A DNA stretch of 64,000 nt from Acidisphaera sp. L21 (GTDB taxonomy: Bacteria; Pseudomonadota; Alphaproteobacteria; Acetobacterales; Acetobacteraceae). The notes under the pieces were generated by a model. It worked only from the letters and a program-made list of their open reading frames with translations. It ran no database searches and was not told the DNA's origin. Position 1 is the stretch's first letter. Every line of letters starts with the position of its first letter. Of this stretch, positions 19,994 to 42,938 are shown piece by piece. The stretch spans positions 1-64,000 of the forward strand of contig NZ_LMUY01000008.1 in NCBI RefSeq assembly GCF_009765685.1. Direction: 5' to 3'. The translations under genes and the position numbers were made by a program.

Positions 19994-20560
19994 ATGAGTG
20001 TTTCACGTGAAACACAGCGTGGGCGATACATTTCGCTGCTACGACGCTGGGGTGCCGCGCTCAACCTCACCGCCACCAACAGTGCTTCCGAGGTGGCACT
20101 GAACACCCTCATCGACGATTGCCTCTGCATCGTGCCGCACCTGCCACCCGGCCTGGATCGGCTGATTGACCTCGGGACCGGCCAGGGTTTTCCCGCAATT
20201 CCAATTGCAATCGAAACAGGGGTTGTCCTCGATCTTGTCGAAGCGGATCGCCGCAAGGCAGCCTTCCTGACCACGACCCTCGCCACGCTGGGCCTGCGTG
20301 GTCATGTGCATACGTCTCGGATCGAAGCCACGGCCCTACCACCGGCCGAATGCGTCACCGCACGTGCGTTGGCGCCGCTTTCGGCCCTGATCCCCTTGGC
20401 GCAGCCGTTCATCTCCGCGACCGGTTGCGGGCTATTTCTAAAGGGAGCGTCCGTCGAGGCCGAATTAGCACAGGTCGCCGCCCGATCTGGCTTGTTGATC
20501 GAGCGTCTTCCCACGGATCGCCCTCCCTCTTGTCTCGTCAAAGTGAGCGCCCTCCGCTAA
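19994..20560 (+). CDS. rsmG: 16S rRNA (guanine-527-N7) methyltransferase RsmG
   Basis: A 188-residue Rossmann-fold methyltransferase (GidB) that modifies G527 of 16S rRNA using S-adenosylmethionine. The cofactor motif is LIDLGTGQGFPAIPIAI, and EADRRKAAFL and VTARALAPLS are conserved in RsmG. It heads the rsmG-parA-parB group usual near alphaproteobacterial origins, but mnmE and mnmG, its usual upstream partners, are absent here. A parS site is embedded in codons 2-7, so the reading SVSRET is fixed by the DNA site. Confidence 0.95.
   Translation: MSVSRETQRGRYISLLRRWGAALNLTATNSASEVALNTLIDDCLCIVPHLPPGLDRLIDLGTGQGFPAIPIAIETGVVLDLVEADRRKAAFLTTTLATLGLRGHVHTSRIEATALPPAECVTARALAPLSALIPLAQPFISATGCGLFLKGASVEAELAQVAARSGLLIERLPTDRPPSCLVKVSALR
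19999..20014. other. parS: parS centromere site (perfect 16-bp palindrome)
   Basis: TGTTTCACGTGAAACA matches the universal parS consensus at every position, and the palindrome extends to 18 bases (GTGTTTCACGTGAAACAC). It lies inside the 5' end of rsmG, 570 bases upstream of parA. ParB binds such sites and spreads to build the segregation complex that ParA moves. The location within rsmG rather than in a spacer is a strict constraint on that protein's N-terminus. Confidence 0.95.
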
Positions 20561-20569
20561 GACGCTTGC

Positions 20570-21382
20570 GTGATCGACAACCAAACCACCACTTCTCCCC
20601 ATATCATCGCGATCGCCAACCAGAAGGGAGGCGTTGGGAAAACTACCACTGCGCTCAACCTCGGCACCGCCCTCGCGCAGAGCGGCCTGCGGGTTTTGAT
20701 TGTCGACTTGGACCCCCAGGGCAATGCCTCCACCGGGTTGGACATCCCGCGATCCGATCGCCAACCCGGCTGTTACAACAGCATCACCGGGCGGGCAGAG
20801 TTGGATGAGTGCATCCGCGCCACACAGGTCGAGGGATTATTCATCATCCCGGCCGAACCGGACCTCGCCGGGGCCGAAATTGAATTGGTGGACCAGCCGA
20901 ACCGCGAGTTCTGCCTGCAGCGCGCGCTATCGCACGTGCAAGGCTTCCCCGTCATCATCATCGACTGCCCGCCCAGCCTGGGGCTACTCACGTTGAATGG
21001 CCTAGTCGCCGCCACGACTGTGCTAGTCCCCCTACAGTGTGAGTTTTTCGCCCTGGAGGGATTGAGCCAGCTAGCCCAGACCGTCGACCGTGTGCGAGGC
21101 TCGTTCAATCAGCGCGCCGTGATCGAGGGGATCGTCCTGACCATGTATGATCGGCGAAACAACCTATCTGAACTCGTCGCAGCTGATGCACGAAGCTTCT
21201 TCGGCCAGCGGGTCTACGAAACGGTCATCCCGCGCAGCGTTCGGGTGTCGGAGGCGCCAAGCCACGGCAAACCGGTGATGTTGTACGACCCGAGATCCGC
21301 CGGCGCCCTGGCTTATGGCAAGATGGCGCAGGAACTGAGCGATCGTTTTCACCTCCGCACGACAGCGAGGGCTGACGCATGA
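20570..21382 (+). CDS. parA: Chromosome partitioning ATPase ParA
   Basis: A 270-residue Walker-type ATPase that drives separation of replicated origins. The deviant Walker A motif is NQKGGVGKTTTALNL and the Walker B aspartate is in VIIIDCPPSLGLLT; LIVDLDPQGNASTGL is the switch region. No N-terminal DNA-binding extension, so it is the chromosomal type. Start is the GTG at 20570, 10 bases after rsmG; its stop overlaps the parB ATG (ATGA). Confidence 0.97.
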   Translation: MIDNQTTTSPHIIAIANQKGGVGKTTTALNLGTALAQSGLRVLIVDLDPQGNASTGLDIPRSDRQPGCYNSITGRAELDECIRATQVEGLFIIPAEPDLAGAEIELVDQPNREFCLQRALSHVQGFPVIIIDCPPSLGLLTLNGLVAATTVLVPLQCEFFALEGLSQLAQTVDRVRGSFNQRAVIEGIVLTMYDRRNNLSELVAADARSFFGQRVYETVIPRSVRVSEAPSHGKPVMLYDPRSAGALAYGKMAQELSDRFHLRTTARADA

Positions 21383-40183: not shown

Positions 40184-40769
40184 TTGGAATGATGCCATGC
40201 TGCCGCAGAAACCCGAGCAACGGCAGCATCGGCAACCCCAAGATGGCAGCGTGTTCGCCTTCGACACGGTCGAAGAGCTGCATGCCCAGCCCCTCCATCC
40301 GGTAGCTGCCGACGCTAGACAGGATGGCCTCGCCCTCGGCCTCCATATAGGTGTCGAGGAAGGTGTCCGAAAACGCCCGCATCGCCAGCACTGGCCGGGC
40401 TACGTGATGCCAAACCGAACGGCCACCACGCCAACATGTCACGGCCGTGACGAGTTCGTGCGGCCGGCCACGTAATTGCACCAGTTGCGCCCGGGCAGCG
40501 GCACGGTCCGGTGGTTTGTCGAACCAGGCGCCGTCGCACACCAGCAACTGGTCGCACCCGATCACCAACACATCCGGATCGCGCACCCGCATCGCCTTGG
40601 CGTCCGCCAGGGTCAGCGCGGTTTCCGTGGCGTCGGCGCCATCGGCCGCCATCGCTTCCTTGATCGCCGCCTCGTCCACTGCGACCGGCTTGACCGTGAA
40701 GCTCAGTCCGGCGGCTTCCATCAAGACCCGGCGCGTGACGGAACCACTGGCTAGCACCACCGATATCAC
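40179..40769 (-). CDS. maf: Maf-family nucleotide pyrophosphatase
   Basis: A 196-residue pyrophosphatase that removes non-canonical nucleotides. It has [20 protein letters not shown] at the start, [16 protein letters not shown] in the middle and [18 protein letters not shown] near the end, the three family motifs. I chose the GTG at 40767-40769, which overlaps the stop of the DUF299 gene (GTGA). The DUF299-maf order next to the origin matches Caulobacter and Rickettsia. Confidence 0.93.
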
Positions 40770-41620
40770 GGCGGCGTGGCGCCGTGTTTCTGCCGGTTGT
40801 GCCAGGCTTCCATCAATTGCAGCACCGTGGCGGCCGTTTCCTCGATGGATCGGCGGGTCACGTCGATGACCGGCCAGCCGCGGCGATTGCAGATGCGGCG
40901 GGCCCACAGCAATTCGTCCTTCACCGTGTCCTGGTCGACGTAATCGGTGGTGTCCTGCCGCATCGGCCCGCCATGGGCGATCATCCGCAGCCGATGCCGC
41001 CGGATCTCGATCAGCGCCGGCGGATCCAGCGTCAGCCCGATCACCGGGCATTTCGGTTCGGCCAGGCCAGGTGGGTCAGGCAAGCCCGGCACCAACGGGA
41101 CATTCGCCGCCTTCACGCCGCGATTGGCCAGATAGAACGACGTGGGAGTCTTAGAGGAACGGGATACGCCCACCAGGATCACATCCGCCTCGGCAATTCC
41201 GGCCTGGGCCTGGCCGTCGTCATGCGCCAGCACGAAATGCATCGCGTCGATGCGACGAAAATAATCCGCGTCCAGCACGTATTGGCGACCTGGGCGGCTG
41301 GCGGCTTTCTCGCCGATCTCCTCCTGCAACATGTCCATCACCGGGTCGAGCACATTGACCACCGTCAGCCCCAGCCGGTCGGTGACACGGGCCAGTTCCT
41401 CCCGCAGCCCGGTATCCAACAGTGTGGACAGCACCGGGCCGGGCTCGGCCTCGATCCCTTCCAGCACGCGATGCAGTTGGAACCGCGTCCGGATCAGGCT
41501 CCAGCGATGATACAGGATCGAGACATGCTCGAACTGCGACACCGTCGCCCGCGCGATCGAGTTCAAAGTCTCTCCGGTCGCGTCCGAGACGAGATGGAGG
41601 TTGAGCCGTTCGGTGACCAT
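40766..41620 (-). CDS. Pyruvate,phosphate dikinase / PEP synthase regulatory protein (DUF299)
   Basis: A 284-residue bifunctional Ser/Thr kinase and Pi-dependent phosphorylase that switches PPDK or PEP synthase. The P-loop is [13 protein letters not shown], preceded by [17 protein letters not shown] at the N-terminus; [18 protein letters not shown] and [16 protein letters not shown] are at the C-terminal end. The ATG giving [13 protein letters not shown] is chosen. This is the RP001 homologue that borders the origin in Rickettsia and Caulobacter. Confidence 0.93.
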
Positions 41621-41800
41621 GGGTGCGAGGATAGCGGGGATAACTGGGTCCGCCAGGGGGGATCGACGGAGACGCAAATTCCAGCGGGGATATCTACGAC
41701 ACCCTCGTCCTCACGGGGACGTTATCTGAAGGGCGGGGCGACCTATCGGGGACAGACCCGAAACCCTCGGTAAACTCAATACCTTGCAGTGCGATCCCGC

Positions 41801-41809
41801 TGTGGATGG
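41801..41809 (-). promoter_or_regulatory. Weak DnaA-box-like site
   Basis: CCATCCACA on the minus strand has 7 of 9 matches to the consensus. It faces the perfect box 37 bases away. Only modest support by itself. Confidence 0.4.
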
Positions 41810-41845
41810 AATCCAGTCCTACGCCCCACAGCCTGAGGTACCCTG

Positions 41846-41854
41846 TTATCCACA
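41846..41854 (+). promoter_or_regulatory. DnaA box
   Basis: TTATCCACA matches the consensus DnaA box exactly. It is in the hemE/DUF299 gap, next to an AT-rich stretch. DnaA bound here would open the neighbouring DNA for replication. Confidence 0.7.
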
Positions 41855-41912
41855 GGGTCCCACTACACACTCCATCTATCTAAGAGTCTTTCTTTGCTTA
41901 TAGATGTGAGGT

Positions 41913-42938
41913 GTGAAGTCTTCGTTTCTCCGTGTGCTGGCAGGCGAACCAGTCTGGCCGCCCCCCGTCTGGCTGATGCGCCAGGCTGGCCGCTATTTGC
42001 CGGAGTATCGGTCGGTGCGCGCGCAGGCGGGTGGGTTCATGGACCTGTGCCTCAACCCGGCACTCGCGACAGAGGTGACACTGCAGCCGATCCGCCGTTT
42101 CGGCTTCGACGCGGCGATCCTGTTTTGCGATATCCTGATGTTGCCCCACGCGTTGGGCCAGGATCTTCGTTACGCAGAGGGCGAGGGGCCATTACTGGCG
42201 CCGATCCGCGACGCCACCAGCTTCGCCAAACTGGATACCAGTCGGGCAGCGGACGTCACCGCGCCGATCATGCAGGCCGTCAGCCGCATCCGGGCCGAAT
42301 TGCCGCCAGACAAGGCGCTGATCGGGTTCGCCGGTAGTCCGTGGACGGTGGCGTGCTACATGGTGGAGGGTCACGGTTCGAAGGAATTCGCGGCCGTCCG
42401 TGGCCTGGCCTATCGCGATCCGCCGCTGTTCGACGCGCTGATCGCGCTACTGGTCGACCAGACGGTCAGCTATCTGCTCGCCATGGTCGACGCGGGCGCC
42501 GACACGGTGATGCTGTTCGATTCCTGGGCCGGCGTGCTGCCCGCCGCGCAGTTCCGCCGTTTCGTGATCGAGCCGACGCGGCAGATCGTCGCCGGGCTGC
42601 GGGCGGTGCATCCGGATCTGCCAGTGATCGGTTTCCCGCGCCTCGCCGGGTCGCTGCTGGGCGAATACACGCGGGCGACGGGCGTGCAGGCGGTGGGGAT
42701 CGATACCTCGATGGACCCCGCATGGGCCGCGTCAACGGTGCCGTCGACTGTCGCGGTGCAGGGCAATATGGATCCGTTGGCCTTGGTCGCGGGCGGTCAG
42801 GCACTGGTAGACGCGGCACAGGCCGTGCTGCAGGCGTGGCGGGGCCGTCCCGGGATCTTCAACCTCGGCCATGGGATCGTGCCGGAGACGCCGCCGGAGC
42901 ATGTGGCGGCGCTGATGGACCTGATCCGCCGTGCTTGA
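41913..42938 (+). CDS. hemE: Uroporphyrinogen decarboxylase
   Basis: A 341-residue enzyme that decarboxylates uroporphyrinogen III to coproporphyrinogen III in heme synthesis. The N-terminal signature is WLMRQAGRYLPEYR and the acidic catalytic region is FCDILMLPHALGQDL; GFAGSPWTVACYMVEG is also typical. Start is the GTG at 41913, just right of the origin region. Its stop overlaps hemH by 8 bases. Confidence 0.97.
   Translation: MKSSFLRVLAGEPVWPPPVWLMRQAGRYLPEYRSVRAQAGGFMDLCLNPALATEVTLQPIRRFGFDAAILFCDILMLPHALGQDLRYAEGEGPLLAPIRDATSFAKLDTSRAADVTAPIMQAVSRIRAELPPDKALIGFAGSPWTVACYMVEGHGSKEFAAVRGLAYRDPPLFDALIALLVDQTVSYLLAMVDAGADTVMLFDSWAGVLPAAQFRRFVIEPTRQIVAGLRAVHPDLPVIGFPRLAGSLLGEYTRATGVQAVGIDTSMDPAWAASTVPSTVAVQGNMDPLALVAGGQALVDAAQAVLQAWRGRPGIFNLGHGIVPETPPEHVAALMDLIRRA

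Follow-up and report, generated by a model that had tools for sequence, protein, structure and literature searches.

In silico prediction of a chromosomal replication origin between hemE and a COG1806 gene in Acidisphaera sp. L21

The 292-bp gap between hemE and the divergent COG1806 gene of Acidisphaera sp. L21 is very probably the chromosomal replication origin, oriC, as predicted in silico. It occupies positions 41621-41912 of the window, the 64,000-nucleotide stretch of DNA analyzed here, which is the first part of a 117,296-bp contig. The origin reading is supported because four independent lines of evidence agree: the gene address, a conserved and top-scoring array of DnaA boxes, GC-skew minima in the contig itself and in the closed genome of a relative (G040), and the proximity of parS and parA. 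An initial annotation had already named the gap a likely chromosomal origin, and the present analysis supports that proposal in silico. The feature is ordinary and well supported; what has been added to the first reading is a conserved array of weak boxes, together with its spacing. The relevant features are as follows.

19999-20014: perfect parS, TGTTTCACGTGAAACA, about 21 kb left of the gap
20570-21382, plus strand: parA, about 21 kb left of the gap
40766-41620, minus strand: RP001/DUF299/COG1806 kinase-pyrophosphorylase gene (PF03618), left flank of the gap, ATG start at 41620
41621-41912: intergenic gap, proposed oriC, top box cluster score of 117 kb
41635-41643, minus strand: box-like site TTATCCCCG (top strand CGGGGATAA), 14.8 bits, first of the W-box-like array, in a conserved column block
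41658-41662, minus strand: GGGGA (TCCCC) array site, sequence match
41685-41693, minus strand: box-like site ATATCCCCG (top strand CGGGGATAT), 10.7 bits, exactly 50 bp from the first
41715-41719, minus strand: GGGGA (TCCCC) array site, sequence match
41747-41755, minus strand: weak site CGGGGACAG, 6.6 bits
41801-41809, minus strand: DnaA-box-like site TGTGGATGG (CCATCCACA), 7/9 match, kept in relatives as TGTGGANNN
41846-41854, plus strand: TTATCCACA, a perfect DnaA box opposite in orientation to the other array sites, adjoining the AT-rich stretch
41855-41912: AT-rich stretch, candidate unwinding element, 58 bp, 57% AT, between the perfect box and hemE
41884-41888: GANTC (GAGTC), possible CcrM methylation site, recurring near the same place in relatives
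41913-42938, plus strand: hemE, uroporphyrinogen decarboxylase, right flank of the gap, GTG start at 41913

Gene address, parS and GC skew

The gap is bounded exactly by hemE and the PF03618 gene, which diverge from it as they do at alphaproteobacterial hemE-COG1806 origins, and maf adjoins the PF03618 gene. Caulobacter has its proven origin, and Rickettsia its predicted one, at this address (PMC1914354), and the Caulobacter/Rickettsia-type neighborhood had been recognized correctly at the outset. The same is true of the switch in gene orientation. Calls from a simple codon-usage gene caller total 23.4 kb on the minus strand versus 9.0 kb on the plus strand in the left arm, and 13.5 kb plus versus 0.5 kb minus in the 17 kb to the right of the gap. 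The parS site and parA, which the initial annotation placed about 22 kb away, lie 21 kb to the left.

Cumulative GC skew had been proposed as a check. The L21 assembly consists of 162 contigs, so its own skew is that of the contig, and closed relatives were sampled for the skew of a whole chromosome. The contig minimum falls at 41575, on a curve that shows little change between about 41 and 44.5 kb. Under block permutation its position is unusual (0.012) and its depth is not (0.39), so the skew of this contig supports the reading without proving it and is weak by itself. The closed genome of G040 (3.37 Mb), sampled as forty 20-kb pieces, reaches its whole-chromosome minimum at 1602 kb, close to the hemE-RP001 gap at 1606 kb (permutation p 0.003). 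In the near-closed genome of G056 the contrast between the arms on either side of the gap gives p 0.02, and the sampled minimum lies 156 kb off, in rough agreement with the gap as origin. The skew of the G009 contig was discarded as uninformative because the gap there is close to the contig end.

Origins in this family can sit away from hemE, as the skew minimum of the closed genome G022 indicates: in that genome, which lacks the PF03618 gene, the minimum is separated from hemE by about 31 kb and from parA by 5 kb. By extension, the L21 origin could lie near but outside the gap, for example toward parAB-parS, or at dnaA, with the hemE gap left as a relic. We consider this extremely improbable. 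The contig skew minimum is at 41575 and not near 20 kb, the L21 box array is intact and occurs nowhere else in the genome, and the 20 kb surrounding dnaA (contig C67) contain no box cluster, the best window there scoring 22.6.

DnaA boxes, weak sites and the AT-rich stretch

Boxes were scored with a position weight matrix (PWM) built from 69 gaps of relatives, with the L21 gap left out. The gap scores 51.7, the top window of the whole contig, where the next best reaches 28.4. None of 2000 dinucleotide shuffles attained this score; the box cluster as a whole, a hallmark of hemE-COG1806 origins, is not due to chance. The orthologous gap also ranks first among the windows of G056 (134 kb, 55.8) and G009 (60 kb, 119.8), both outside the PWM training set. 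In G040 it is the top window of 60 kb, yet with a low score of 13.3.

The initial annotation described a perfect DnaA box and a second, weaker inverted box, and both are present, at 41846-41854 and 41801-41809. A single TTATCCACA carries little weight, because its 15 copies genome-wide equal the count for a reversed-pattern control. The further search for DnaA, CtrA and IHF sites that had been suggested gave a mixed result, adding five TCCCC sites to the first list and finding no CtrA or IHF consensus in the gap. These five sites, GGGGA on the top strand, share one orientation (41636, 41658, 41686, 41715 and 41748, spanning 41636-41752). Shuffled sequences give 1.55 GGGGA on average (p 0.006), and the opposite strand of the gap has none. 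No other such cluster occurs in the contig, and the whole 6.38-Mb assembly has a single match to a gapped pattern of the array. The sites resemble the Caulobacter W-box, with consensus TCCCCA (PMC4285127), and weak sites with this TCCCC core are characteristic of the Caulobacter-type Cori.

A comparison of the gap across Acetobacteraceae, also proposed at the outset, reveals a conserved array. We examined 110 hemE loci (the window, 80 loci from public genomes and 29 from genomes of the same family). Of these, 94 (93 of 109 without the window) have a divergent PF03618 gene on the upstream side of hemE, and some of the others stop at contig edges. Gap lengths in relatives are mostly 290-345 bp. 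When 70 non-redundant gaps were aligned, conserved positions were limited to short blocks matching DnaA boxes: CGGGGATAA-type blocks, TGTGGATNN, and TTATCCACA beside the AT-rich end. Box-like sites average 4.07 per gap versus 0.35 in dinucleotide shuffles, with at least three in 64 of the 70 gaps, a count favored by the training of the PWM on 69 of these same gaps (those of L21, G009 and G056 being outside it). Sites of the same orientation are most often 50 bp apart in relatives, followed by 9, 164, 175 and 114 bp, and the L21 gap has the 50-bp pair at 41635 and 41685. The sequence between blocks is not conserved and the distances are, a combination that would be expected of a protein array of fixed geometry.

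Like other hemE-COG1806 origins, the gap is richer in AT than its surroundings (43%, versus 34% for the contig). The AT-rich stretch with a GANTC site noted initially is indeed there: the last 58 bp are 57% AT, and just 0.2% of all windows of that size in the contig reach this value. In 62 of the 70 gaps of relatives the last 60 bp are richer in AT than the remainder. DnaA-trios, part of the bacterial BUS unwinding system, read 3'-GAT-5' and lie 10-13 bp from a box (PMC8287927); GAT triplets are present in the gap, but reading by eye found no clear repeat at that distance from a box.

Because hemE and the PF03618 gene are transcribed away from each other, their promoters have to be located within the gap or close to it. 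The gap might then be merely a divergent promoter region, its conserved sites serving transcription, perhaps with DnaA as a regulator, while replication starts elsewhere. This too is highly improbable. The gap coincides with skew minima in L21 and in G040, Caulobacter has a proven origin at the same gene address, and a spaced array of several boxes with an adjacent AT-rich stretch far exceeds what promoters need.

Comparison with known origins and a possible mechanism

Its synteny, DnaA boxes, AT content and GC skew place the gap among the alphaproteobacterial hemE-COG1806 origins, as one whose boxes follow a variant layout. Like Caulobacter crescentus Cori, it sits between hemE and the COG1806 gene and combines full-length DnaA boxes with five weak W-boxes of core TCCCC, and its host has genes for GcrA and for a protein with a CcrM-type domain, as C. 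crescentus does. Unlike Cori, it is only 292 bp long, its full boxes are of the TTATCCACA type where Cori has the G-box TGATCCACA, and it lacks CtrA TTAA sites and an IHF consensus. The origins of Rickettsia prowazekii and Wolbachia also have hemE as a boundary gene, DnaA boxes and AT content above the genome average. They differ in their predicted CtrA and IHF sites and in a very different genome G+C content, and the Wolbachia origin has lost the COG1806 neighbor that is retained here.

The CtrA pattern TTAA-N7-TTAA is absent from the L21 gap and occurs once among the 70 gaps of relatives, and therefore the CtrA block of Caulobacter is not expected here. The IHF consensus has no match in the L21 gap and occurs six times in those of the relatives, versus 0.7 expected. 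GANTC, by contrast with shuffled sequence, is 2.2-fold enriched in the relatives' gaps (212 versus 95) and clusters in the hemE-side AT-rich stretch, aligned near 41886. The L21 gap has another GANTC starting at 41809. With this enrichment and recurrence, and with GcrA and a RAMA-domain (CcrM-type) protein encoded in the L21 genome, a methylation input to the origin through GANTC and CcrM is plausible.

By analogy with Caulobacter, on which DnaA binding, the order of assembly and the opening site are modeled, initiation may proceed as follows. DnaA-ATP would first occupy two sites, the perfect box (41846) and the inverted one (41801), and would then spread cooperatively along the weak TCCCC sites of the same orientation, from 41752 back to 41636; in Caulobacter, five weak W-boxes fill only through cooperation with stronger boxes (PMC4468827, PMC4285127). 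The DnaA oligomer would open the AT-rich stretch at 41855-41912, on the hemE side, where helicases would load and two forks would move apart. The GANTC sites may couple these events to CcrM methylation.

It is possible, if rather doubtful, that Acetobacteraceae origins share a distinct CtrA-independent layout, in which the unwinding stretch adjoins one or two full boxes, weak TCCCC sites form an array on a fixed 50/114-bp ruler, and GANTC methylation replaces CtrA as the cell-cycle input. A literature search limited to open papers, few hits of which were read, found no experimentally mapped Acetobacteraceae origin, and a search for TTATCCCC with DnaA returned only irrelevant papers. A likely origin has been placed for a family with no experimentally mapped one in the papers searched. 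W-box-like weak sites and their spacing, known from Caulobacter, are likewise conserved in this lineage, where CtrA sites are missing from the origin, so their role can be tested by comparison.

Variation among relatives

Several loci depart from the common arrangement. At an E-value of 0.001, an RP001/PF03618 homologue is missing from five of 11 same-family genomes tested (G010, G022, G026, G041 and G006), which we interpret as lineage-specific loss of the origin-flanking gene. The minimum in G022 is sharp, at 1844035 (loci L147 and L224-L228; G022:C1:1750001-1886000), and hemE there has no box array; this looks like a relocation either of the origin or of hemE. In Rhodopila (L029, L033, L049), candidate clusters of boxes located 6 kb upstream of hemE were rejected as lying inside a conserved coding frame. 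In L059 the gap upstream of hemE extends over 1238 bp, a fourfold increase on the usual length, and its box array is at the RP001 end; an insertion between origin and hemE is a possible cause. The densest array seen, with ten box-like sites, is in the 443-bp hemE-RP001 gap of G009 (L118/L135; G009:C1, about 1382800-1383270).
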